64,000 nt of DNA from Bordetella genomosp. 5 (GTDB taxonomy: Bacteria; Pseudomonadota; Gammaproteobacteria; Burkholderiales; Burkholderiaceae_B): contig NZ_NEVN01000013.1 in the NCBI RefSeq assembly GCF_002261475.1, forward strand, positions 372,001 through 436,000. Direction: 5' to 3'. Of the stretch, positions 608 through 30,623 are shown piece after piece (within the stretch, counting starts at the first letter, position 1; each line of letters opens with the position of its first letter). Below the pieces are notes generated by a model. The model made no database searches. It was not told the origin of the DNA and saw only the letters and a program-made list of their open reading frames with translations. The translations under genes and the position numbers were made by a program.

Positions 608-8964
<8,357 letters not shown>

Positions 8965-9072
8965 GAGCACTCCGACTCGAGGTTGCATGGGCCGTAAACC
9001 ACGGCCCTGGGTGATACGACTCCAGGAAACCACCCTGAAACCACCTGATCAGAAGGGGTTTCCTGGAAACGC

Positions 9073-9109
9073 AAAAGCCCGGGGACGGCAAATTGCGCTG
9101 TCCCCGGGC
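9073..9109 (-). terminator. attenuator-type hairpin between rplL and rpoB
   Basis: A perfect 10-bp stem, GCCCGGGGAC (9077-9086) with GTCCCCGGGC (9100-9109), is followed on the minus strand by TTTTG. By analogy with the enterobacterial rplL-rpoB gap, it probably lets only part of the ribosomal-protein transcription reach rpoBC. It may also be an RNA processing site. Confidence 0.65.
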
Positions 9110-9124
9110 AGATGACGCGAAGGC

Positions 9125-9502
9125 TTACTTGACTTCGACCTTGGCGCCAGCTTCTTCCAGCTTCTTCTTGGCGGCTTCGGCGTCAGCCTTGGCCAGACCT
9201 TCCTTGACGGGCTTCGGAGCGCCGTCAACCAGGTCCTTGGCTTCCTTCAGACCCAGACCGGTCAGCTCGCGCACGGCCTTGATCACGCTCACCTTGTTGG
9301 CGCCGGCTTCAGCCAGCACAACGGTGAACTCGGTCTGCTCTTCAGCAGCGGGACCAGCAGCGGCGCCAGGAGCGGCCACGGCCACAGCGGCGGCAGCAGC
9401 CGACACGCCAAACTTCTCTTCCATTTCCTTGATCAGCTCGGACAGTTCGAGCACGGTCATGCCAGCGATGGCGTCAAGGATTTCAGCTTTGTTAAGTGCC
9501 AT
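9125..9502 (-). CDS. rplL: 50S ribosomal protein L7/L12
   Basis: This is ribosomal stalk protein L7/L12, 125 residues. The N-terminal dimerisation helices ([20 protein letters not shown]) are followed by an Ala/Gly-rich hinge at about residues 36-55. The C-terminal factor-binding domain contains [20 protein letters not shown]. It recruits elongation and initiation factors to the ribosome. It lies 81 bp downstream of rplJ in the same operon, as expected because L10 and L7/L12 assemble together and jointly repress their own mRNA. Confidence 0.98.
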
Positions 9503-9583
9503 TTTCTTTAGAACTCCAGAATGGGGTAATGCCAGGTTTGGTTGTCGCTATGTCGTTCAGCGAAGTCCGGATACCGCGCCAGC

Positions 9584-10108
9584 TTAGGCGGCGGCCTTCT
9601 GATCGCGCACGGCGGCGAGGCCACGGGCGAACTTGGTCGGAACTTCGTTGAGCGTACGCACGAATTGCGCGATCGGGGCTTGCATAGTGCCCAGCAGCTT
9701 CGAAAGCAGTTCGTCGCGCGAGGGCATCGTGGCCAGGGCCTTGACACCATCTTGGCTCAGCAAGTTGTTGGGCAGAGCGCCCGCCTTGATGACCAGCTTG
9801 TCGTTGCTTTTTGCGAAGGTAGCGAGGACCTTGGCCGCCGAAACCGGGTCGTTGCTGATACCGTAGATCAGCGGACCGGTCAGTTGCTCGGACAACGGCT
9901 CGAAAGCCGTGCCGGCAACAGCACGACGGGCCAGCGAGTTCTTCAGAACTCGCAGGTAAACGCCCGATTCACGCGCAGTTTTGCGCAGTACGGTGACAGA
10001 GGCGACGTCCAGACCACGGTACTCAGCGATAACAATCGATTGAGCCTGGGCCACTTGGGCCGAGACTTCCTCGATCACCACCGCTTTCTCTTGGCGATTG
10101 AGACTCAC
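9584..10108 (-). CDS. rplJ: 50S ribosomal protein L10
   Basis: This is ribosomal protein L10, the base of the L7/L12 stalk, 174 residues. The N-terminal rRNA-binding part ([15 protein letters not shown], then [16 protein letters not shown]) is followed by a C-terminal helix that carries L7/L12 dimers. A 244-bp untranslated leader precedes it. In other bacteria such a leader is bound by the L10-L7/L12 complex to repress translation; the hairpin seen there (10303-10323) fits that model but is not proof. Confidence 0.98.
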
Positions 10109-10302
10109 GGTTTGAACACTCCATCAAAAGACGCTTGGGGCGGAAGCCTTGCACGTCAACCGAATGCGGCGCCTGGTTGAGTTCTTCGTGTAAAGAATTC
10201 TTCCTGGGGACGCCGTCTACGCTGGATCCGGACATGACGAGCTCCGGGATTAAGCGGCTTGCCTTTACTGCCGGCTTGCCACTCCAGCGGTCTTTGACAG
10301 CA

Positions 10303-10323
10303 GCATCCGGAAAAACCGGATGC
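10303..10323 (-). promoter_or_regulatory. candidate L10 leader hairpin
   Basis: A perfect 8-bp stem, GCATCCGG/CCGGATGC with a five-base loop, sits in the 244-bp gap between rplA and rplJ. No T tract follows, so an mRNA control element for rplJL is more likely than a terminator. Its role is inferred from position. Confidence 0.4.
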
Positions 10324-10352
10324 AGCCCAAAGTACAGTTTGCGATCAGCCTA

Positions 10353-11048
10353 TCAGGCCGACAGCGAAGCGATTTCTACGCGAGCACCGCCGCCCATGGT
10401 GGACGAGACGGCCAGCTTGCGCAGGTAGATACCCTTGGCGGCGGCGGGACGAGCCTTTTGCAGGGCGTCGACCAGAGCGGCCAGGTTGGTTTGCAGTTGT
10501 TCGACGCCGAACGAGGCGCGACCGATGGTGGCGTGAATGATGCCGGCCTTGTCGGTGCGGTACTGCACCTGACCTGCCTTGGCGTTCTTCACGGCGGTAG
10601 CGACGTCGGGGGTCACGGTGCCGACCTTCGGGTTCGGCATCAGGCCACGCGGGCCCAGGATTTGACCCAGGGCGCCGACGACACGCATCGTGTCGGGCGA
10701 GGCGATGACGATGTCGAAGTCCATCTGGCCAGCCTTGATCTGGTCAGCCAGGTCGTCGAGGCCAACCACATCGGCGCCAGCGGCGCGAGCGGCTTCAGCC
10801 TTGTCGCCTTGGGCGAACACGGCGACACGGACGGTCTTGCCGGTACCGGCGGGCAGCACGACCGAGCCACGAACCAGTTGGTCGGACTTCTTGGGGTCGA
10901 TGCCGAGCTGGACGGCGACGTCGATCGATTCGTTGAACTTGGCGGTGGCGGTTTCCTTGACCAGGGCCAGGGCTTCAGCAACCGGGTACAGCTTGGTGCG
11001 ATCGATCTTTTCGGCGATCGCGGCAGCGCGCTTGGACAGTTTTGCCAT
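10353..11048 (-). CDS. rplA: 50S ribosomal protein L1
   Basis: This is ribosomal protein L1, 231 residues, which forms the mobile L1 stalk beside the E site. Family sequences visible include [20 protein letters not shown] and [17 protein letters not shown]1 commonly represses its own rplKA mRNA. Only 2 bp separate it from the rplK stop codon, so the two are co-translated. Confidence 0.98.
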
Positions 11049-18354: not shown

Positions 18355-19355
18355 CGCTCGAACAGGGCCTGAATCTCGGCGCGGTCGCGCTTGCCCATGA
18401 GCGCCAGCGTCAGCAGCACGCGGGCCTTTTGAGGATTGAGCTCATACGCGGCGATGAAGCCGCCGTGATCGTCGTCGACCTCGATGTTGCGGCCCACGCT
18501 GCCGGATCCAGTGCGCGTGCTGCGCACCACCGCCACGCCACTGCGTGACGCATTCATCATCGCATCGACCGCGGCGTCGGTGGCATTGCCGTCGCCGACG
18601 CCGGCCAGCACGATCCCTTGCGCGTGCGTGGCCATGAAGTCGATCAAGAGACCGTCCATATCAGCGCAGGCATACGCAATCTCGACGCGCGGCCAGACCG
18701 TGGCGGGCAACTGAGACAGCGGGAACACATTGTCGGCCGCCGCGCTCGCGATATCGGCACGGCCGTAGAACGACACCCGCGATCCGCGCACCACGCCGGC
18801 CCGGCCGGCGTTGGGCGAGTCGAAGGCGTCGACACCGCCACACGCCATCTTCTGGACATGACGGGCGTAATGAACCTCGTCGTTCATGACGACGAGCGGA
18901 CCACGATTGGCCGACTGCGGCGAGACCGCGACGGCGACCGCGCTATGGATGTTGCGCGGACCATCGGCACTCATGGCGGTGGCCGGACGCATCGCGCCCA
19001 CCAGCACCACGGGCTTGGTATGCGGCAGCACGAGGCTGAGGAAATACGCCGTCTCTTCGAGCGTATCGGTGCCATGGGTGATGACGATGCCGGTGATGTC
19101 ATCGGCACGCATGAGCTCGTCGACCCGGCGCGCCAGCGCGTGCCAGACGGCATAGCTCATGTTCTGGCTGCCGACGTTCACCAGCTGCTCGGGCTCGACG
19201 CGCGCCAGTCCGGCGAGCGAGGGCACGGCCTCGAGCAAGGTGTCGACCGACAGCGCGCCGGCGCGATAGCCTCCGCTGAGCTCACCGGTTTGCGCACCTG
19301 CGATGGTGCCGCCGGTGGCGATGAGCGCGATGCGCGCCTGGCGTCGATCAGGCAT
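18348..19355 (-). CDS. asparaginase
   Basis: An L-asparaginase of the type I/II family, 335 residues, which hydrolyses asparagine to aspartate and ammonia. The first nucleophile motif IATGGTIAGAQ and the second TGI-VITHGTDTLEETAYF carry the two catalytic threonines. The ATG at 19355 is chosen because the conserved N-terminus starts there; it overlaps the end of parB by 8 bp. No signal peptide is seen, so a cytoplasmic enzyme is likely. Its place at the end of the parAB operon is odd for a metabolic enzyme and implies co-transcription with the partition genes. Confidence 0.9.
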   Translation of the reverse strand: MPDRRQARIALIATGGTIAGAQTGELSGGYRAGALSVDTLLEAVPSLAGLARVEPEQLVNVGSQNMSYAVWHALARRVDELMRADDITGIVITHGTDTLEETAYFLSLVLPHTKPVVLVGAMRPATAMSADGPRNIHSAVAVAVSPQSANRGPLVVMNDEVHYARHVQKMACGGVDAFDSPNAGRAGVVRGSRVSFYGRADIASAAADNVFPLSQLPATVWPRVEIAYACADMDGLLIDFMATHAQGIVLAGVGDGNATDAAVDAMMNASRSGVAVVRSTRTGSGSVGRNIEVDDDHGGFIAAYELNPQKARVLLTLALMGKRDRAEIQALFERY

Positions 19356-20262
19356 CGATGACTCCGGACAGACCCTGGCGCTCGAGCAGCGCGTTGAGAT
19401 GCTCGTAGCCATGGAAGTCGATCACGATCTGGCCTTTTTCGCGCGCGCCGACCTTCAGCGATACGCGGGTGCCGAGGTGATCGGACAGAGCCTCTTCGAG
19501 CCGCGTGAGGTCGCGCGAGGCGCCATTGGCCTTCTTGCGCGGCGAACCATCGCTATCTTTCAGCGTCTTGGTGACGAGCTTTTCGGCTTCGCGCACCGAC
19601 AGGCGCTTTGCGATGATCTGATTGGCCAGCTGAATCTGGATGGCGGCCTCGGCCGACAGCAGCGCACGGGCGTGGCCCATGTCGACATCGCCGGCGAGCA
19701 GCATCGTCTGCACCGGCGCGGCCAGGTTGAGCAGGCGCAGCAGGTTGCTGGTGGCGGAACGCGAGCGGCCGATGGCCTGCGCGGCCTGTTCGTGCGTGAG
19801 ACCGAACTCGTCGAGCAGGCGCCGCACGCCCTGGGCCTCTTCGAGCGGATTGAGGTCTTCGCGCTGGATGTTTTCGATGAGCGCCATCACCGCGGCGTTT
19901 TCGTCGGGCACCTCGCGCACGAGCACCGGCACCTCTTTGAGGCCCGCCAGCTGCGCGGCGCGGAAGCGGCGTTCGCCCGCGATGATCTCGTATTGGCCAG
20001 CGCCCGCGCCCTGAAGCGCGCGCACGAGAATGGGCTGCATGATGCCCTGTGCACGGATGGACTCGGCCAGCTCGTTGAGCGCGCCCTCATCCATGCGAGT
20101 GCGCGGCTGGTACTTGCCAGCCCGCATCTTGCTGACAGGCAGGACGGAGGGAGGGCCTTCAGCCCGCACGGCTTCTTTGCCGAGGTTGTCGATGGCGGGC
20201 GCATCGGCGCCCAGCAATGCATCGAGCCCGCGGCCCAGGCCCTTGGGTTTCTTGGTGGCCAT
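19348..20262 (-). CDS. parB: chromosome partition protein ParB
   Basis: ParB binds parS and spreads around it to form the origin segregation complex. It has 304 residues. The N-terminal CTP-binding domain includes QPRTRMDE and the GERRFRAAQLAG motif, with the ENIQREDLNPLEEA segment. A helix-turn-helix follows (THEQAAQAIGRSRSATSNLLRLL). The C-terminal dimer domain ends near HGYEHLNALLERQG. It starts MATKKPKGLGRGLDALL, the usual N-terminus that contacts ParA. Twelve parS-like sites lie 4.3-7 kb away on the far side of mnmG. Confidence 0.98.
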   Translation of the reverse strand: MATKKPKGLGRGLDALLGADAPAIDNLGKEAVRAEGPPSVLPVSKMRAGKYQPRTRMDEGALNELAESIRAQGIMQPILVRALQGAGAGQYEIIAGERRFRAAQLAGLKEVPVLVREVPDENAAVMALIENIQREDLNPLEEAQGVRRLLDEFGLTHEQAAQAIGRSRSATSNLLRLLNLAAPVQTMLLAGDVDMGHARALLSAEAAIQIQLANQIIAKRLSVREAEKLVTKTLKDSDGSPRKKANGASRDLTRLEEALSDHLGTRVSLKVGAREKGQIVIDFHGYEHLNALLERQGLSGVIDA

Positions 20263-20306: not shown

Positions 20307-21131
20307 TCACTGCTGCGCCGTGGCGGGCAGCGAGCGATACCAGTATGAATAACTATCCACAAAACCATATCGCGCATAAAGCGCGCGCGCGGCGACGTTG
20401 CCTGCCTCGACCTGCAGATACGCATGCCGGCAGCCGCGCTCGCGCGCTTCGGCGAGCAGCCGCACCAGCAAGGCGGTGCCGTGCCCGCGGCGGCGCTGCG
20501 CGGGCAGCGTCACGACGTCGAATATGCCCAGCAGATCCGCTTCGATCACGCCCAATGCCGCCGCCACCGGCGTGCCGTCGGCCTGGCATGCGAGCAAAGG
20601 CACCAGGTCGACCATCAGGCCGGTGAGGCGCGCCGTGTGTTCGAGCACGGCGGCCGGCGTGGAGCCTTTCAGGCGTCCGACTTCGGTTGCGAACTGCTGT
20701 GCCGGCACCTGCTGGAACGTGATGTCAGTGGACTGCGCCGCAGACGCGATCGGCGTGACGGGCGCGGTCATGACGGAGGTCGGGTCGTACCCCTCATACC
20801 CGCGCGCCGCCAGGGCAGCGTCGAGCTCGAAATCCGGACCGATCGAGGTCAGACGCAGGATCAGCGGCAGATCGGCGCGCGCGTACCACCCGAGACAGTA
20901 CGCCAGTCGCTCGTCGAGCGCGCGTGTGGATAACCCGAGGATATTCACACTGCGCATGCGGCGCGCCGGCGACGGCGCACGCCGCAGCAGCCAGCCGTCG
21001 TAGAACACCTGTTCGCGCACCGCAGTGGCGTTGAGCGAGGCTTCTTCGATGCGCGCAAGCAGCCCGTCACGCGCTTGCATGACAGGAGCAAAAGGAGCGG
21101 AAGACGGCTCGGCCGGACGACTCTGCATCAT
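20307..21131 (-). CDS. GNAT-family N-acetyltransferase embedded between parA and parB
   Basis: A protein of 274 residues. The C-terminal half is a GNAT domain: the acetyl-CoA loop is QRRRGHGTALLVRLL, followed by HAYLQVEAGNVAARALYARYGF. The N-terminal 130 residues (including MRSVNILGLSTRALDERLAYC) form a divergent second domain. The acceptor is unknown. It sits 9 bp after parA and 44 bp before parB, on the same strand, so it must be co-transcribed with them. Its presence inside the partition pair raises the possibility that it modifies an origin or nucleoid protein, but it may be a passenger. Confidence 0.85.
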   Translation of the reverse strand: MMQSRPAEPSSAPFAPVMQARDGLLARIEEASLNATAVREQVFYDGWLLRRAPSPARRMRSVNILGLSTRALDERLAYCLGWYARADLPLILRLTSIGPDFELDAALAARGYEGYDPTSVMTAPVTPIASAAQSTDITFQQVPAQQFATEVGRLKGSTPAAVLEHTARLTGLMVDLVPLLACQADGTPVAAALGVIEADLLGIFDVVTLPAQRRRGHGTALLVRLLAEARERGCRHAYLQVEAGNVAARALYARYGFVDSYSYWYRSLPATAQQ

Positions 21132-21140
21132 GACAGCCGA

Positions 21141-21938
21141 TCAGTTCATTTCCTTGACGCGCTCGATCATCTCGGCGCCAAAGGAGATGTACGCCTGAGC
21201 GCCGCGCGAGTTGCGGTCGTAGACGACGCCGGGCATGCCATAGCTGGGGGCCTCGGCGAGCCGGACATTGCGCGGCACCACGCTCTTGAACACCTTGTCG
21301 CCAAAGTGCGCCTCGAGCTGGGCCGAGACCTGCTGCTGCAGCGTCATGCGTGGATCGAACATCACGCGCAGCAGACCGATGACGCGCAGGTCGTTGTTGA
21401 TGTTGCGATGGACCCGCTTGATCGTGTTGACCAGATCGGAGAGGCCTTCGAGCGCGAAGTATTCGCATTGCATCGGGATGATGACGCCATGCGCGGCGGC
21501 CAGGCCATTGAGCGTCAGCAGCGACAGCGTCGGCGGGCAGTCGATCAGTACGAAATCGTATTGATCCGCCACGGTGTCGATGGCGGCGCGGAGCTGACGC
21601 TCGCGCTCTTCCATCTGCACGAGGTCGATCTCGGCGCCGGAGAGCTCACGGTTGGCCGGCAGCACGTCGTAGCCGCCGGACTCGGAGCGCACGCGCGCAT
21701 CCGCGATCGTGGCCTCGCCGATCAGCACTTGATAAAGATTGGACGGCACGGCGTTCTTGTCGATGCCACTGCCCATCGTGGCATTGCCCTGCGGATCCAG
21801 GTCGACCAGCAACACGCGCTGGTTCAGCGTGGCCAGTCCCGCCGCCAGATTGATGGCCGTCGTGGTCTTGCCCACACCGCCCTTCTGATTGGCGATGCAG
21901 AACACGCGTGCGGAGTTGCTGGGCGGTATTGAGTTCAT
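21141..21938 (-). CDS. parA: chromosome partition ATPase ParA
   Basis: A ParA/Soj ATPase of 265 residues that moves ParB-parS complexes. The deviant Walker A motif KGGVGKTT is at residues 19-26, after ARVFCIANQ. Walker A' and B regions are visible ([26 protein letters not shown]). The ATG at 21938 is chosen because it overlaps the rsmG stop (ATGA) and leaves the short N-terminus usual for chromosomal ParA; an in-frame reading to 22028 has no family match. The GNAT gene follows after 9 bp. Confidence 0.98.
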
Positions 21939-22612
21939 AGAGTTCCTTGACTGCGGCGCATCCAGATGAGGCAGCGCTGCGCGTCGAGTTCGGGGACGGT
22001 CAACGTTTGAATGTTTTCGACTTGCCATTCGCCTTGGTCGGCGAGCATGGCGAGCTCATCGTCCGGGACCTTGCCTTTCATCGCGACGAGGGTACCACCG
22101 TTGCGCACGTGACGACCCGACCATTCAGCGAAATCCTGCAGCGACGCAAACGCGCGCGAAATCACGACATCGCACTCGCCCGGTTCGAGCTGTTCGATGC
22201 GGGCGTGACGCGCATGCAGATTGGGCGCGTTCAGCGCACCGCTCATCTGCCGCACGAACGCGGTTTTTTTCTCGACCGCATCGATGCAGGTGATGTCCCA
22301 GGCGGGTTGCATCACCGCAAGCACCACCCCCGGCAAGCCTCCGCCGGATCCCACGTCGTAGATGCGGGCGGGACCGTCGCCGAGATGCGCGCGCAGCGGC
22401 CCGACGACAGACAGGCTATCGAACAAATGCTGCACCAGCATTTGTCCGGGGTCGCGGATGGCGGTGAGATTGTAGGTGCGATTCCAGCGCTGCATCTGCG
22501 CGACGTAACGCAGCAGCGTGTCGCGCTGCTGCGCGTCGGGCTCCAGGCCCAGCGCGCGGCAAGCCTCGGCGAGCCGCGCCTCGGCGGCCGGGTCGTTCAC
22601 GACGGCGCTCAT
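21935..22612 (-). CDS. rsmG: 16S rRNA (guanine-527 N7) methyltransferase
   Basis: RsmG (GidB) methylates G527 of 16S rRNA with SAM. It has 225 residues. The SAM-binding loop is [16 protein letters not shown], with the preceding [14 protein letters not shown] typical of the family. It overlaps mnmG upstream and parA downstream by four bases each (ATGA). Loss of this enzyme is known to give low-level streptomycin resistance in other bacteria; here it looks intact. Confidence 0.98.
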
Positions 22613-24528
22613 GCCGCTTGCTTGCGCGAGCCGTAATGCAGGCGCTTGAGATGAATCAGCAACAGGGAGATCGCGGCGGGGGTCATGCCGGAGATCCGGC
22701 CGGCCTGTCCGATGGTCTCCGGACGGTGCGTCTTGAGCTTCTGCCGCACTTCGAAGGACAGGCTCGTGACCGCGTCGTAATCGATATCGGCCGGAATCGG
22801 CTGCTGCTCATGGGTCGCGTGCTTCTGCACTTCATCGCGCTGGCGCGCAATGTAGCCGGCGTACTTGACCTGGATCTCGACCTGCTCCGACAGCACCTCG
22901 TCGTGCAGCACGCCCGGGCCCGCGAGCAGCTCGCCGGCCTCGTCGCGCGCCTGCATCAGGCCGGCATACGACACATTCGGGCGCTTCAGCAGGTCTGATA
23001 GTGAGTACTCACGTTCAATGCTTTTGCCAAGCAGCGGCTCGGCAACCTCCGCGGGCAAGGTCCGCGGGTTGAACCAGGTGGACTTGAGACGCTCGACTTC
23101 GGCCGCAACGGCGTCGCGCTTGCGGTTGAACGCGTCCCACCGCAGGTCGTCCACCAGACCCAGCTCGCGGCCGATTTCGGTCAGGCGCAAATCCGCGTTG
23201 TCTTCGCGCAGACTGAGGCGGTATTCGGCGCGCGAGGTGAACATGCGGTAGGGTTCGGTGACACCGCGCGTGACGAGATCGTCGACCAGCACACCCAGAT
23301 AGGCTTCGTCGCGACGCGGCGTCCAGGGCTCTTTGCCCTGCGCCTGCAGCGCGGCGTTCACACCGGCCAGCAGGCCTTGCGCGGCCGCTTCTTCGTAGCC
23401 CGTGGTGCCGTTGATCTGTCCGGCAAAGAACAGCCCCTGGATGCTCTTGGTTTCGAGCGTGCTCTTCAGCGCACGCGGATCGAAATAATCGTACTCGATG
23501 GCATAGCCGGGACGCAGAATGTGTGCGTTCTCCAGCCCCGGCAGAGAGTGAATCAGATCGAGCTGCACGTCGAACGGCAGGCTGGTCGATACCCCGTTCG
23601 GATAGACCTCATGCGTGTCCAACCCTTCCGGCTCGAGAAAGACCTGGTGCGACGCCTTGTCGGCGAAGCGGTGAATCTTGTCTTCGATCGAGGGGCAGTA
23701 ACGCGGGCCCACGCCTTCGATCACACCGCTGTACATCGGCGAACGGTCGAGACCGCCGCGAATGATGTCGTGCGTGCGCGCGTTGGTATGCGTGATCCAG
23801 CACGGCAACTGGCGCGGATGCATGGCGGTGTTTCCCATGAAGGAAAACACGGGCACCGGGTCCAGGTCGCCGGGCTGCTCTTCCAGGATCGCGTAGTTGA
23901 TGGTGCGACCATCGATACGCGGCGGGGTGCCGGTCTTGAGGCGGCCTTGAGGCAACTGCAGTTCTTTGAGGCGCTGACCCAGCGAGATCGCAGGCGGGTC
24001 GCCGGCGCGGCCACCCGAGTAGTGCTGCAGGCCGACGTGGATCAAGCCATTCAGGAAGGTGCCGGCCGTGAGGACGACCGTGCGCGCGCGGAACTTCAGA
24101 CCGACCTGGGTCACGGCACCCACGACCCGGTCGCCCTCCACCATCAGATCCTCTACGGCCTGCTGGAACAGCCACAGATTGGGCTGGTTCTCCAGCCGGC
24201 TCCGGATCGCTTGGCGATACAGAACCCGGTCGGCCTGCGCGCGCGTGGCACGCACCGCCGGCCCCTTGGAGCCGTTGAGAATGCGGAATTGAATCCCGGC
24301 CTCGTCCGTGGCGATCGCCATGGCGCCGCCCAGCGCATCGACCTCTTTGACCAGATGTCCCTTGCCAATACCTCCGATGGAGGGATTGCAGGACATCTGC
24401 CCTAAGGTCTCGATGTTGTGGGTGAGGAGCAGCGTCTGAGCGCCTGCGCGCGCGGCCGCCAGCGCGGCTTCGGTACCGGCGTGGCCGCCACCGACGACGA
24501 TGACGTCAAATTCGCGGGGGTAATCCAT
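22609..24528 (-). CDS. mnmG: tRNA uridine-5-carboxymethylaminomethyl modification enzyme MnmG
   Basis: MnmG (GidA) is the FAD-dependent partner of MnmE in making the cmnm5U34 modification of tRNA. It has 639 residues, the normal length. The N-terminal FAD fold is [22 protein letters not shown]. Conserved segments [17 protein letters not shown] and [14 protein letters not shown] are present. It is the first gene of the operon that runs into parA and parB, and its promoter region overlaps a parS site. The partner gene mnmE lies 22 kb away in this window. Confidence 0.98.
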
Positions 24529-24560
24529 GATGGGGGCAATAAAAAAGAGCTTCGACCGCC

Positions 24561-24593
24561 ATTATAGAGGCTGCCCTGCCCTTGTTTCACGTG
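24561..24593 (-). promoter_or_regulatory. predicted mnmG-rsmG-parAB operon promoter overlapped by parS
   Basis: On the minus strand a perfect TATAAT (24561-24566) lies 33 bp before the mnmG start. A GTGAAA -35-like hexamer stands 18 bp upstream, inside the right half of the parS site at 24583-24598. ParB bound there should compete with RNA polymerase. The -10 is clear; the -35 is only a 4/6 match. Confidence 0.6.
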
Positions 24594-24598
24594 AAACG
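24583..24598. promoter_or_regulatory. parS site 1
   Basis: TGTTTCACGTGAAACG matches the 16-bp parS consensus at 15 positions (last base G). It has symmetric TTTC/GAAA arms. It is the site overlapping the mnmG promoter. Confidence 0.9.
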
Positions 24599-25065
24599 TG
24601 GTAAGGGACAGGAAAAACAACGTGAGCGGGGCGGCTGGGTAGGAAGTGGTGAGGGAAGTTGGGGTATGTGACGGGTTTGGGACTGAAGGCTTGGGCGCTG
24701 TTTGGGCTTGCTCCGGCGGGGACCGGCCCCGGGGGCCGGCCAACACTGACTGAAGCGAGCACTAACTTTGCAGTGCAGGAGGTCGCCTCGCGCGCGGCGA
24801 ACCGGGAGTACCGAAGCGCTGGCTGGCATCCTGGACGAGTCCGCCTTAGGGTCGGCGGAACGCCGCCTCGAATGCTGCGCTGTTGGCTGTATGCGGTGGC
24901 CATGCTGGAGCGCTTCCGGCGTTCGGCTGCGCAGAGGGTGGCGGACGGATAGAGGTCGGCCGAGGGATGGGAATCGGGTCGTTGCTATCCCTCCCTGCCC
25001 GATGAGGGCCGCCTCCCTGCCGCGGCATGCAATCCGCGGGCATAGGGGCGGGACTTCATCCCGGT

Positions 25066-25081
25066 TGTTTCACGTGGAACG
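25066..25081. promoter_or_regulatory. parS site 2
   Basis: TGTTTCACGTGGAACG, with asymmetric arms (TTTC left, GGAA right). It is 483 bp from site 1 and only 66 bp from site 3. Confidence 0.88.
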
Positions 25082-25131
25082 TCGCGCCGAGGTTCCACAC
25101 TTTTAATCGGGCGGACCCGGGCACTGCCGTG

Positions 25132-25147
25132 TGTTCCACGTGAAACA
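25132..25147. promoter_or_regulatory. parS site 3
   Basis: TGTTCCACGTGAAACA. The asymmetric arms are in the opposite orientation to all other asymmetric sites. Confidence 0.88.
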
Positions 25148-25360
25148 GGCAGCGTTCAGAGTACCGCCAGTCACGCACCGAGATGGCGGCATGTACGGCG
25201 AACCGGTCCCTCGGATACACGACCACGACCAGCCGATACGTAGCGTGGGCCGTTTCGCATGAGGGCCGACCTACTGACCCGGTAGGATGGCACGCGGCAC
25301 TCCCTCCTCTTCCCTTCGCTCTCAACGCACCTGGCGGATCGCCGGCGTTCGGGACGGCGA

Positions 25361-25376
25361 TGTTTCACGTGGAACA
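25361..25376. promoter_or_regulatory. parS site 4
   Basis: TGTTTCACGTGGAACA, one change from the symmetric consensus. It is preceded by GGCGA, as are several other sites. Confidence 0.9.
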
Positions 25377-25481
25377 AGAGCGGTAGCCGCGATCCGGCCT
25401 AGCAATGGCGGGGATGACGACACACGGAGCTACGCAGATCGCGGCGGTCAGGTGGCATCCGGCTGTGCCGGAGCATCGCGA

Positions 25482-25497
25482 TGTTTCACGTGGAACA
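25482..25497. promoter_or_regulatory. parS site 5
   Basis: TGTTTCACGTGGAACA. The downstream GGTCAGCC (25513) and GACCGAAT (25532) recur after site 8. Confidence 0.9.
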
Positions 25498-25635
25498 GTG
25501 CGACCGCGCGGAGGTCAGCCGCTGGTCCAATGACCGAATACCATCATGGCCGGGGGACCACGGCAAGATGCTCTGACGTCTAGCGCTCTCCCTCCTGCGG
25601 CGTCTGCGGACAGGCGCATCTCTCGCTCGTCGCGA

Positions 25636-25651
25636 CGTTTCACGTGGAACA
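25636..25651. promoter_or_regulatory. parS site 6
   Basis: CGTTTCACGTGGAACA (first base C). The downstream TGCGCCGATGT at 25673 recurs at the same offset after site 7. Confidence 0.88.
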
Positions 25652-25928
25652 TAGAGCGCTAAGGGCCCGATGTGCGCCGATGTATGCTCACCCAGGGCCC
25701 CAAACCGCGCGCGGTTGCGTCGCTCTGCATCCTCTCTGCCTCGACCCCACCGCCCAGACGCAGCCGGTAAAGTCGGCGACGCTTCCAATGAAACCTGCGG
25801 TGCACCGGGTCAATCGGCATGGCCTGGTCCGTATCCAGGGTAAGACGACCGGTGAGATTGCCACGGTGGGCTGCCCGGGTCCTTCTTCCACACCTTTGGA
25901 CTGATCGCTGATGGCATTCGGGAACCGA

Positions 25929-25944
25929 TGTTCCACGTGGAACA
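25929..25944. promoter_or_regulatory. parS site 7
   Basis: TGTTCCACGTGGAACA, a perfect 16-bp palindrome with TTCC/GGAA arms. Confidence 0.88.
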
Positions 25945-26077
25945 ATGCACGTCGAGGCCGCACTTGCGCCGATGTGTCCGTATCCGCGCGCGGCACCGAG
26001 CGCATTTGCGGCGGTTTGCAGCCATATACCTTACCCCGCCATCCCAGAAGCACTCGATACTCGTCGGACGTAGGCGA

Positions 26078-26093
26078 TGTTTCACGTGGAACA
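26078..26093. promoter_or_regulatory. parS site 8
   Basis: TGTTTCACGTGGAACA, 149 bp after site 7 and 153 bp before site 9. Confidence 0.9.
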
Positions 26094-26230
26094 AAGCAGT
26101 GGAGGGGGTCAGCCGGACCGAATCGCTCCTTATTTCCCCGCACTCAGGCGCTGCAGAGCGGCCACGATGCTCTCCCTCAACCCCCGCCCCGCCACCTAAG
26201 AAGCGCACGACGCTCGTGGATTGTGGCCGA

Positions 26231-26246
26231 TGTTCCACGTGGAACA
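26231..26246. promoter_or_regulatory. parS site 9
   Basis: TGTTCCACGTGGAACA, a perfect palindrome. It is preceded by a GCTCTCCCTC-containing segment (26169) also seen before site 6. Confidence 0.88.
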
Positions 26247-26462
26247 TTGCCCCGCCGTGGGATCACTCTGAATAATCGAGATCAAGGACGCAGCCTTAGA
26301 GGCCTTGCCTTCCAGCATCCGCCCTCCCCGTGCGTCTCTCGGTTCCACTTCACCAGCGCATCAGTGCCTAGGTAAGTCTGGGTAGGCCGCCTCGTGCGCC
26401 CATGCTTAGGTGAGCCAGAGTAATCCCGCCTAGCGCATCCGAAAATCAGCTATAGAGGCGGA

Positions 26463-26478
26463 TGTTCCACGTGGAACA
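26463..26478. promoter_or_regulatory. parS site 10
   Basis: TGTTCCACGTGGAACA, a perfect palindrome. A 601-bp interval without a site follows. Confidence 0.88.
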
Positions 26479-27063
26479 CGCGCAGCGATGTTCGCAGCTT
26501 TACGCAATAGCGGCGAACCAGTCACCGGTAACGGCTCGCAGACGTGGGGTTAAGCGAGGCGTAATCCCCTTCGCTGCTGGGGCGGGCACTTGTACCTAAA
26601 CCGTTGCCGTGAGGCGGGAGACCACTGCCGACCATCAGAATGGCGTCCCGCCTTCCCTGGAGACCCACTCTGTACCCTTCTCAGACCTCCCTCCAGGGCC
26701 GTGGAATCCGAGTGTGGCGTGGCCTACGGGTGTGCCTTGCCCCATATAGCCAGATGCAATTGCGACTGTGCCACCGCCGGGCCAGGGCCCGCACCACACG
26801 GCCAGCACAGCGTTACCTTCCCTCCACGGGTTAATAAGGATGTGGCGTCACAATACGTGCAAAGGCGTGTGGGTAGAGACGGAATGCGCCCGGTCACGCA
26901 CAACCTCTACCTTCTGCAAACGGAGCCATCAAGGGCCGGCCCTCGAGACACCTTGGTAGGCGCACCCGAAGGCATGCCTGCGGCAATGCCGCACTGTGGG
27001 CTGCGGCCTTCGACATGGTCAGACCTCTGCGCCGGAGAGACGAACTTCAGTCCGGACGCGGGG

Positions 27064-27079
27064 TGTTTCACGTGGAACA
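27064..27079. promoter_or_regulatory. parS site 11
   Basis: TGTTTCACGTGGAACA, in the same asymmetric orientation as sites 2, 4, 5, 6 and 8. Confidence 0.9.
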
Positions 27080-27252
27080 GAGACCCGGCAACGAGAACCC
27101 TCGCATACACCTGGATAGTGACGTCGATGTCTCATCGACGCCGCATGCAATCGATATTGCTTTTCGAGGCAAGTGGCACCCCCGTGCGGTGTATCGCCGT
27201 CCGGGGTGACATACCGGGGTGAGCAGACAGAGAGGGCGAGACGCGAGACTCG

Positions 27253-27268
27253 CGTTTCACGTGAAACA
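27253..27268. promoter_or_regulatory. parS site 12
   Basis: CGTTTCACGTGAAACA, with symmetric inner arms and first base C. It is the site nearest the DnaA-box cluster, about 530 bp away. Confidence 0.9.
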
Positions 27269-27745
27269 CGTCAAGCTCGGGAAGTGATACAGCGGACGAC
27301 GCAAGGCTCAATAAGTGCTTCAAGCCAGATGCAAGGGCACGTAGAGGGGCCACCCGGAATCGTTCAGGCCGCTACCTCATGTGCCCCGAGTCGGGCACGC
27401 CACATGCTTAATGGACGGGTTGCCCGGACCGGTCTCGGTCCAGATCCCGCACGTGCCTCGGACACCCCCGCCGCCGACTCGCCGCCACTCAGGTCCGCGC
27501 CCCGGCGCCTCGGCGGTGCGGCAACGAATGAAGACCTCCGACTGCCGCGAGTCGGGCAATGAAAGTCGAGCCGCCCTGCCCCGCGCGTACCGAGATCGAA
27601 TGGTCGCACCGCATTGCGCGGAGCGAGTACGACGGCATCCTCAAATGCGTCCGGCGGCCCCTACGCAGTCGGCCAAACGGGTGGCAAGTGAGCATCAGCC
27701 GCGGGGCCAAGATCGGCCACAGGCTATTCGCGATCTCCCTCAGCG

Positions 27746-28707
27746 GATTATTTTTCGATCGCCTGGCGGCCTCGGAGTTCCAGAGAAATGGAAGATATCC
27801 ACAGAGATTCCCACAGCGGTTGCGGAACGCTGGCTAGGTATTCGGCAGCGCGGCGGACTGACTGCGACGACGGCCTGGTCGTGCGCCAGCCCTCGGCTTC
27901 ATAGGGAACGCGACCGAAAACAGGCTGCCAGCGGCCGAAGGCCGGGCCCGCTCCCCGTCCGACGGGTTAGACCAAAGGGATGAGTCGCCGCCCGCCGCAC
28001 CAGAAGCTATCCACAATGTTGTCCCCACTTGAGTGAGGTGCCGCCGCGCATCGATCGCTTTGGCAAAACCGTTCAACGTGGAAAACGCTGTGCATAAGTC
28101 GGAGCGCGCTTTTCGTCGGCGTTTATCGTGCAGCCCGGTCAAGATGGATCCGGACCCCACGGAAATCGCGTCGGCCTTCGAGCGCGGTCAGGTCGTTCTC
28201 ACTTCCACGGCAAGCGGGAGTGCTTTTCTCTGAGGCCGGGGGTCCGAGGCCACTGGCCGCGGTCACCGGATGAATCTCCGGGATCCATCTGAGCCTGGCC
28301 GCCGGCCTCGCCCGTTCAAAGCTATCCACAGAAAAACAGCCCGACAAATTCCCAATCGGCCGTCGAGGGCGATCATCCTTATTGGGGATATCTTTGTGAA
28401 CAATGGCCACCGCACTGATGTGGAAAACGGACGCTTCACATGAAGCCGTTTTCGGATTCCGACGCCAAGCTCGCCGCCTTTCTGTTCCTCATTCCCTATA
28501 ACGCCCCGAAAAGATAGAGGAAATTACGTGCGCGCCGGTGCCGCCCACACCTTCGACTTCAAGCGCGCCCTGGGTATAAAAATGTGGAAAGCTGCCTGGC
28601 GCGTCTGTGCAGAACTTCGGCCGTTTTGACGTTTCGCGTGGAAAGCGGCACACCTCGCCCGGGAAAAATACGCGGTCTGGGGAAAATTATCCACAAAGTT
28701 ATCCAGA
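27746..28707. other. putative chromosomal replication origin (oriC)
   Basis: The region contains a cluster of DnaA boxes (consensus TTATCCACA) and no gene. Perfect or near matches are ATATCCACA 27795-27803, CTATCCACA 28017-28025, TTATGCACA on the minus strand 28089-28097, CTATCCACA 28322-28330, TTTTCCACA minus 28419-28427, CTTTCCACA minus 28583-28591, TTATCCACA 28687-28695 and TTATCCAGA 28699-28707. A further TTATCCACA is at 29157-29165. Short AT-rich tracts occur near 27748, 28575 and 28670. The position beside mnmG, with the flanking left-hand genes pointing away, agrees with an origin. dnaA is not in the window. Confidence 0.7.
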
Positions 28708-29588
28708 GGCATGGAGTGGGCTTCCAGCCTCCCTGGACGGTGTAAGTGAACACTAACTTACGTCGATGAATGTCGGCTTGCCGCGCCGGACAATCTGCGG
28801 TGCGAGGCCGAGGTCTGGGTGCATAACCGTTCGACCGCGCGTGCCGGCATGTGCCCCAGCCTTGATTGGGAGGGACATACGATCAGGCCCCGCCTTGACC
28901 CGGATCGCGCGCCCTTCCCTGTGCGCGCGGCACAGATAAAGCAGAACTCATCCGCTGATGCCCGCGGCGCTCACTCTTCTGGCAGAGAGCAGCATGTCTT
29001 GCGACACCCAGGCCTTTAAGCCCTGGCTTTGAGCCTTGGCCTGCCCCACGCCTACCCAGGTCGTCCCTGTGGCCTCACAAGCCGATCACAAGCGGGGGAT
29101 GGCCCAGCGGCAGCATCGGTGCGTAAACAGCCCCTGATGGGGCCACAGCGCCCGATTTATCCACAGTCGCGCTTACCCCCGACCTTGCCTCGCCGATGCG
29201 CCAGGAACGGCCCGGTGGCGCATTCGGTTTATACCCCATCATCACACGGCGGCCGCGCTCAGCGGCGAGCTGTGGCCTGCTGGTGTCGGCAACGAAGACT
29301 GCTCCACCGCGTGGTGTGTGCGCTGCTCCAGGCACCGGCAACTCAAGGGCCTGGCGTCGGCGCCGTCCGGGCACCGGCACCCCAGGACGCTGTCCGCGTT
29401 GCATCTGGAACGGAACTTAGAAGGCCAGGTGTCGGGCCGCTCTGGGCCGATGACGTACCCTGCCGGCGGTCACGAGGCCCCCTTCACGCTCGAGGAATGC
29501 TCAACAATCCCCGCCGGCATACGGAAAGCCGATAAGCTGGCCCTGACGAGGCGCAGCGCGCCACGCGATGCCGATCAGGAGGAACGAG

Positions 29589-30077
29589 ATGAAACCCGCA
29601 GCGAGTCCGCTCACGATCCGGCGCCCGATGCTGGCGGACGTCGATACGGTGCTGGAGATGGAGGCCGATCCGGAGGTGATGCGATACAGCACGGGCGTGA
29701 TCGAACCCACCGCGGCCCGACGTGAGGGACTGGCCCGCTACTTCGTGGGACCGCCGCCTGATCCTTTGGGTCACTGGATCCTGTTGAACGGCGCCGACGT
29801 GCTGGGGTGGGTGAGCCTCACCGAGCTCGACGACACCGGCCGCGTACAGCTTGCCTATCGCCTGCGGCGCCAGGCATGGGGTCAGGGGTGGGCCACCGCC
29901 GCCGCGAATTGGGCGTGCGCGCATGCGTCGCAAAACGGACTGCAGGCGCTGGTTGCCGTCGTGTGGCCGGGTAACGACGCGTCACGCCGGGTGCTCGAAA
30001 AGTCGGGCTTCCAATTTGAAGCGATGGCGCGGCATTACGATCGCGACACCCTGCTGTACGCGCGATCGTTGGCATGA
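29589..30077 (+). CDS. GNAT-family N-acetyltransferase (RimJ/RimL-like)
   Basis: A protein of 162 residues starting at the ATG at 29589, which follows a strong AGGAGG at 29577-29582. It has the RimJ/RimL layout: LTIRRPMLADVDTVLEMEADPEV, a central GWVSLTELDD strand, an acetyl-CoA loop in RRQAWGQGWATAAANW, and VWPGNDASRRVLEKSGFQFE near the end. Such enzymes acetylate protein N-termini, amino acids or small amines; the acceptor here is unknown. It is the first gene to the right of the origin region and stands alone. Confidence 0.88.
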   Translation: MKPAASPLTIRRPMLADVDTVLEMEADPEVMRYSTGVIEPTAARREGLARYFVGPPPDPLGHWILLNGADVLGWVSLTELDDTGRVQLAYRLRRQAWGQGWATAAANWACAHASQNGLQALVAVVWPGNDASRRVLEKSGFQFEAMARHYDRDTLLYARSLA

Positions 30078-30093
30078 CTTTGCGCGCAAATGA

Positions 30094-30121
30094 CAACGCC
30101 CCAGATTGCGCTGGGGCGTTG
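30094..30121. terminator. hairpin between GNAT and cold-shock genes
   Basis: CAACGCCCCAG pairs perfectly with CTGGGGCGTTG (11 bp, 6-base loop) between convergent genes. No T tract follows on either strand, so its strength is uncertain. A second small stem (GGGAAA/TTTCCC, 30147-30165) lies next to the end of the cold-shock gene. Confidence 0.55.
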
Positions 30122-30168
30122 GAGCCAGGGGTCAAGCCTGGCACGCGGGAAAAAAGGGATTTCCCGAT

Positions 30169-30375
30169 TTAGAGCGGACGAATTTCGGCCGCTTGAGGTC
30201 CTTTCGGACCATCCTTGACTTCGAATTCCACTTCCTGGCCTTCGTTGAGGCTGCGGTAGCCTCGGCCTTGAATCGCGGAGAAGTGTGCGAACACGTCGGT
30301 ACCACCGCTGTCCGGCGTGATGAAGCCGTAGCCTTTATCGGCGTTGAACCACTTAACTTTGCCCTTCTGAGCCAT
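30169..30375 (-). CDS. cold-shock family protein
   Basis: A single cold-shock domain of 68 residues from the ATG at 30375. It has the nucleic-acid-binding motifs KGYGFITP (RNP1 type) and DVFAHFSAI (RNP2 type). CspA-type proteins melt RNA structure and act as transcription antiterminators or RNA chaperones. The in-frame reading upstream to 30435 is leader and not conserved. The untranslated region upstream is long, as in cold-regulated csp genes. Confidence 0.95.
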
Positions 30376-30623
30376 TTCTATAGCGTCCTGGTAAACAATC
30401 AAGAATTGCAAGTGACTCAAGGACGCTGACACCAACGTATTGTCTAGGTACTGGGACCGCCGACACTGCGTTTGTGGCTTGCCGAAAATGGCCGAAACCG
30501 GGCTTGCGCACTGCTTGATTCAACTGCCCGGCCAGCATACCCAGCGGGGTTTGTTGCTACAAATAGTTGTTTACCCGTATGTGGCTTTTTTTTCACTTGG
30601 CTGTCAAGTTTGTTTCCCGTCAT

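Follow-up and report, generated by a model that had tools for sequence, protein, structure and literature searches.

Why should one locus gather a dozen parS sites, the sites bound by ParB, when a 2020 review that asks why parS number varies, and what drives clustering, holds that a single site often suffices (PMC7333895)? The question is raised by a stretch of 64,000 nucleotides from Bordetella genomosp. 5 (contig NZ_NEVN01000013.1, positions 372,001 to 436,000; hereafter the window), in which an earlier note had pointed out twelve parS-like 16-mers in non-coding DNA at 24583-27268, beside mnmG-parAB. Their place, number and rarity were borne out by the analysis reported here. A possible promoter role of site 1 and a history of duplication, both missing from the earlier note, were added by this follow-up. 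A parS apparently fused to the operon promoter and conserved across the clade, together with visible traces of the birth and death of sites, would be what is new here.

Exact copies of TTYCACGTGRAA numbered 12 in the window, spanning 24585-27266 (24583-27268 as 16-mers). The search of the whole assembly (5,206,962 bases, 13 contigs) also returned 12, every one of them in the array of ~2.7 kb, and no even scatter of matches over the genome was seen. With up to two mismatches the window gave 16 matches, whereas 100 shuffles averaged 5.2 and never exceeded 12. The 16-bp parS consensus TGTTYCACGTGRAACA was matched exactly by 8 of the 12 sites and with a single mismatch at an end base by the other four; when up to three mismatches were allowed, each strand of the assembly had 48 more places, all with two or three mismatches, as against 39 for the reversed control pattern. 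The twelve sites are almost certainly parS, because the consensus is exact, only these 12 occur in the assembly, and all lie near parAB and a canonical ParB. The region looks non-coding: all 24 open reading frames of at least 80 amino acids between 24529 and 29567 (mnmG excluded) lacked a Pfam match and were ruled out as genes. The sites, at 4.5 per kb, are as follows.

24583..24598, + strand: parS 1, TGTTTCACGTGAAACG, overlapping the -35 region of the promoter-like element of mnmG-rsmG-parA-parB
25066..25081, + strand: parS 2
25132..25147, + strand: parS 3, the sole reversed one among seven asymmetric sites
25361..25376, + strand: parS 4
25482..25497, + strand: parS 5
25636..25651, + strand: parS 6, opening copy 1 of a duplicated unit
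25929..25944, + strand: parS 7, opening copy 2 of the duplicated unit
26078..26093, + strand: parS 8
26231..26246, + strand: parS 9
26463..26478, + strand: parS 10
27064..27079, + strand: parS 11
27253..27268, + strand: parS 12

To place this number among relatives, 200 genomes of the family were searched for the parS 14-mer, which was present in 187; the top count was the 12 found here and the runner-up had 10. Genus labels used below, namely the window's own genus (Bordetella and kin) and g4 (Achromobacter-type), are assignments by inference only. In the own genus (15 genomes, two of them only 73-77% complete), the other members hold 2-7 sites by 12-mer, and the number at the mnmG locus spans 2 to 12. 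Two of the seven sites of G142 sit away from the locus; isolated copies of TTYCACGTGRAA far from mnmG were seen in two congeners, in G158 on C1 at 2560171 and 2919762 and in G142 on C8 at 378430 and C10 at 558061. Achromobacter-type loci (g4 and the named L001) carry 5-11 sites upstream of mnmG, with eleven within ~1.1 kb in L129. Across a sample of the order (399 genomes), two was, judged by eye, the most frequent parS number, and nine genomes, this one included, had at least ten. Five of the other eight were scattered (over roughly at least 100 kb or several contigs, G485 being counted so from six listed sites), G277 was compact, and G466 and G540 were left unplaced; G304, G429 and G489 spread 10-11 sites over about 120-130 kb.

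The earlier note had called the array exceptional against a background of few, scattered sites on most chromosomes. For this family that background needs correcting, as relatives also cluster their sites compactly beside mnmG. The count is indeed the highest of the 200 family genomes, but the density ranks last among the ten arrays for which it was computed (eight Achromobacter-type arrays reach 4.9-12 per kb), and 22 sites in 3 kb are reported for Myxococcus xanthus (PMC3899335). An unusually dense array was thus ruled out; since family relatives pack their sites as densely or more so, it is the count, not the density, that is unusual.

Two side observations concern the distribution of parS. 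The 14-mer was absent from eight 0.7-0.8 Mb genomes of family genus g8 (G007, G044, G070, G091, G110, G125, G136 and G147), a pattern that suggests loss of parS in these reduced genomes, and likewise from five larger family genomes. Many other Burkholderiales (L018, L020, L054 and further loci of L005-L080) have a parS within the coding sequence of mnmG, at a conserved place ~1426 bp past its start.

Comparisons of related loci give good support to selection that keeps the sites while the spacers turn over, and together with the canonical ParB nearby they bear out the view of the twelve as selected parS sites. In the cleanest pair, L126 and L128, 8 of 9 sites were kept with 112/112 bases identical at a spacer identity of 74%, and one site was lost. 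L088 and L090 kept 8/8 sites with spacers 73% identical, four of them identical over 14 bases and the rest differing only at Y/R positions, and L114 and L117 kept 4/4 (three identical) at 74%. By chance, all 12 fixed positions of a site would stay intact at 74% identity with a probability of ~0.03 per site. Among Achromobacter-type pairs (45 of the 406 possible), 168 of 301 aligned shared sites were identical in all 14 bases and the others differed at Y/R; only the closest pairs were used as proof, since parS itself attracts the aligner once spacer identity is low. Alignment of the window with its nearest relative, L119 (MnmG 96% identical, six sites), was confined to four stretches: the initial 94 bp, which include site 1; 45 bp enclosing one parS; a 31-bp element with DnaA-box-like sequences; and, on the far side, the border with the cold-shock gene.

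Site 1 is set apart by a promoter-like element on the opposite strand.

24561..24590, - strand: promoter-like element, ~33 nt before the mnmG start

Its -35 element, GTGAAA (24590-24585), coincides with one half of parS 1 on the minus strand, and is followed after an 18-nt spacer by the -10 element TATAAT (24566-24561); 10 of 12 positions agree with the consensus, in a consensus scan that is not proof. The arrangement of site 1 and promoter was aligned in 18 of 20 loci. Loci were scored for an exact TATAAT separated by 17-19 nt from a parS half-site GTGRAA. This pattern occurred in 14/14 loci of the own genus and 30/30 Achromobacter-type loci, and in 4 of 1840 shuffled tails; L116, of the own genus, was omitted since its contig cuts off mnmG, and its genome has the pattern in the genome-wide search. 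Among other named family loci, one of three had TATAAT, at an off-optimum spacing of 14, and the pattern was missing from all 70 other loci compared in the order (one matched 5/6 bases; 25 had no parS within 260 bp).

Genome-wide, 87 of the 200 family genomes had the pattern, in 17 of 39 genera, and none had the control pattern. The 87 comprised 13/13 of the own genus, 33/34 of g4 and 41 others; 20 of these 41, from 15 genera, were fetched, and all 20 have it immediately upstream of mnmG. Within the sample of the order, 6/18 family genomes carried the pattern, versus 4/381 non-family genomes. Gaps of 15-19 nt accounted for 87 family genomes and the 31 gaps of 20-50 nt for 60 of 200, 10 of which were already counted via a nearer site. 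A parS near TATAAT is thus a theme of the family, with overlap of the -35 region as its commonest form. No report of such a parS-promoter overlap was found at title and abstract level, in a search that left most subscription literature outside.

The variable number of sites can be followed to some extent within the array itself, where alignments show traces of enlargement through tandem duplication as well as of site loss.

25636..25928, + strand: copy 1 of an old tandem duplication, 293 bp
25929..26230, + strand: copy 2 of the old tandem duplication, 302 bp
25780..25795, + strand: decayed parS-like sequence, a 10/14 match aligned opposite intact parS 8

Copy 1 (site 6 to 7) aligns end to end with copy 2 (site 7 to 9), with 183 of 284 positions identical (64%), parS included. 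The score of the two units corresponds to z 11.2 (300 shuffles), and 60 unrelated segment pairs reached 3.87 at most; the parS-free spacers of the units gave z 8.1 and 6.1, values above 4 occurring in 2 of 55 spacer pairs. A further doubling of ~150 bp relates 26034-26093 to 26187-26246 (77%). Flank similarity of sites 6/7 and 8/9 scored 36 and 38, where the null set never exceeded 28, and 7 of 264 flank arms passed the 99% level, where 2.6 were expected. The sequence at 25780-25795 was read as a decayed parS because its flanks align within the duplicated unit; on match score alone it was rejected, since the window contains 56 non-exact matches of this grade, eight of them intergenic, and 10/14 is thus no rarity.

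The duplications are old and local. Tandem Repeats Finder listed no parS-containing repeat in 24000-30500, and a recent tandem repeat with units at least 70% alike was ruled out. Of the arrays of 14 relatives, three had spacers too short for comparison, and among the 11 remaining only L127 exceeded z 4 (4.3). Old duplication is therefore shown for the window and weakly for L127; the process is otherwise clear only at a young stage, in G239 (3.4 copies of a 389-bp unit) and in G277, from another family of the order.

L131 (G277:C61), 8065-10787: tandem parS array, one parS per unit

The G277 array consists of 12.4 copies of 220-bp units that are ~90% alike; as it holds 13 parS, no unit is without one, although the invariance of the parS core across units is partly by construction, the units having been picked by parS match. 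A tblastn search with the MnmG and ParB of the window against 19.5 kb around this array gave no match.

The array lies in the non-coding DNA between mnmG-rsmG-parA-parB and a cluster of DnaA boxes, in the following setting.

19348..20262, - strand: parB (ParB_N, HTH_ParB, ParB_C)
20307..21131, - strand: GNAT-type acetyltransferase gene, between parA and parB
21141..22028, - strand: parA-type ATPase gene, whose true start may be downstream of the listed start
21935..22612, - strand: rsmG (gidB), TIGR00138
22609..24528, - strand: mnmG (gidA), TIGR00136, 895.6 bits
27795..29165, no strand assigned: DnaA-box cluster, probable oriC
28680..28710, + strand: 31-bp element with two DnaA-box-like sequences, conserved in congeners
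30169..30435, - strand: cold-shock gene, beyond the array

ParB is canonical, with all three Pfam ParB domains (N-terminal, helix-turn-helix and dimerisation) found; its PDB relatives include ParB, Spo0J, Noc and KorB chains, and its best named relative was that of Achromobacter xylosoxidans (88%), in a list that may omit near relatives. The acetyltransferase gene shares its strand with parA and parB, which flank it, and may therefore be co-transcribed with the segregation genes. An SMC gene is encoded in the genome (TIGR02168, 1085 bits, above cut-off). DnaA boxes with at most one mismatch reach 7 per 1.5 kb at 27.8-29.2 kb, the densest in 277 kb (mean 0.24), and oriC probably lies in this region beside the array. 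It is placed as probable, not pinned by skew, because the minimum of the cumulative GC skew is broad, being lowest at -2000 relative to the window and flat until about +50 kb; dnaA is at window coordinate 68512, ~40 kb off. Two near-parS sequences (28071-28084 and 28631-28644, 12/14 bases) stand beside the DnaA boxes; as parS relics their support was weak (binomial p 0.018).

The 31-bp element was 100% identical in L119. Ten further congeners were compared, in which 23-25 bp were identical in L113, L114, L115, L120 and L122 and 27/29 in L117, and the element was not found in L111, L112, L118 and L121. In each of the 20 loci examined for the cold-shock gene, it lay beyond the array.

It is established that dimers of ParB, together with CTP, load onto DNA at parS and then slide, and that ParB recruits SMC. 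On this background, we lean towards a reading in which the locus is the chromosomal ParABS centromere and its array would load ParB and SMC, with site 1 autoregulating the operon and the array setting the demand for ParB. ParB would enter as a CTP clamp at every site, and twelve entry points in 2.7 kb would therefore raise ParB density around the origin; the array would also act as one point of SMC loading. Both roles proposed in the earlier note, a large centre of ParB nucleation or a platform for loading SMC, are plausible and have precedents. On site 1, ParB would compete with RNA polymerase and so repress mnmG-rsmG-parA-parB, its own operon. Each added site would raise the demand for ParB and relieve this repression, with growth of the array being tolerated or even favoured. 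Since each extra site would take up ParB, the feedback would match ParB supply to array size, and site number could therefore drift (2 to 12 in the genus) without loss of segregation. More tentatively, the locus may be a self-tuning centromere in which parS 1 is an operator sensing free ParB and the array is a ParB sink; satellite-like tandem duplication and decay would then change the number of parS, and ParB supply would follow.

An account that we regard as doubtful takes the array as ordinary and free of regulation, with sites 2-12 being redundant neutral duplicates in a long intergenic region and site 1 lying near the promoter by adjacency. The parS count does rise with the distance between mnmG and csp (Spearman rho 0.74, n=20, kinship uncorrected), 2 to 12 sites occur at the locus within one genus, and a single parS is described as often enough (PMC7333895, PMC7083940). 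Neutral copies should degenerate along with the DNA between them, but 8 of 9 sites stayed intact at 74% spacer identity, where chance allows ~0.03 per site, and the parS-TATAAT spacing of 17-19 nt in 44/44 loci also speaks against mere adjacency. It is improbable that the array serves mainly as a single-point SMC loading platform, selected against collisions of complexes from distant sites. SMC is encoded, all 12 sites lie inside 2.7 kb, and in Bacillus subtilis the clustered position of strong parS sites is described as helping to keep Smc complexes from colliding (PMC8357415); but collision avoidance accounts for clustering, not for the high number, and G304, G429 and G489 of the same order spread theirs over about 120-130 kb. 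We give almost no credence to the CACGTG palindromes being operators of some other regulator: only the overlap of the first site with the promoter-like element would favour it, against a canonical parS 16-mer that occurs in the assembly solely at the origin near parAB, with a canonical ParB nearby.

Several points weigh against the favoured reading of an autoregulating site 1 and a selected array. GTGAAA agrees with TTGACA at just 4 of 6 positions. The exact spacing is missing in 113 of 200 family genomes, 50 of which carry TATAAT 20-50 nt downstream of a parS (position relative to mnmG unchecked). The full palindrome of site 1 is held at both ends (proximal A 44/44, distal T 43/44), and a -35 role can explain the proximal end only; the bias towards the proximal A (44/44 at site 1 versus 175/262 at other sites, p 1e-7) was for this reason rejected as proof of a -35 role, being confounded by an equally constrained distal end. 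These 44 loci are kin, not independent. In the wider comparisons of arrays, L126 and L001 kept 8/9 sites at 62% spacer identity and L128 and L001 7/8 (five identical) at 63%, the alignment being uncertain in both, and L001 had sites of its own in each. Corynebacterium glutamicum is reported to grow like the wild type with one parS (PMC7083940), so that twelve need not be needed. The gidA and parA promoters of Pseudomonas aeruginosa were mentioned, as unpublished data, to be unregulated by ParA or ParB in E. coli (PMC3909081).

Autoregulation of chromosomal par operons was described in a 2014 paper as not determined (PMC3909081). The clade offers a natural set for such questions, with arrays of 2-12 sites in sister species, traces of site birth and death, and a parS apparently fused to the par promoter. 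The genes mnmG and rsmG act in tRNA and rRNA modification. If the favoured reading is true, a chromosomal par operon would be autoregulated via its own centromere site, and feedback would tie the dose of ParB, and with it mnmG and rsmG, to the size of the centromere.

Compact parS arrays are already a known kind. That of M. xanthus is compact like the one here, with 22 sites in ~3 kb located ~4 kb upstream of parA, and purified ParB was reported to bind the fragment with the parS cluster; it differs in having more sites and a parAB locus ~35 kb from oriC (PMC3899335). Achromobacter-type arrays share the position upstream of mnmG and the overlap of site 1 with the promoter-like element (30/30 loci), but have fewer sites (5-11) at a higher density (4.9-12 versus 4.5 per kb). 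G277 likewise has 13 parS within 2.6 kb, unlike here in 220-bp units ~90% alike and with no tblastn match to the MnmG or ParB of the window in 19.5 kb. In C. glutamicum, several parS also lie near the origin, ParB forms clusters and recruits SMC, and ten parS are reported to hold more ParB per cluster than one, whereas the ten sites extend across 35 kb and lie 73 kb away from oriC (PMC7083940). The par operons of class Ia plasmids are described as autoregulated, as proposed here, with ParA as the repressor and ParB usually as co-repressor, whereas at this locus a centromere site would be the operator (PMC7022226). In P. aeruginosa, ParB at a parS placed beside a test promoter was reported to reduce expression (PMC7022226).

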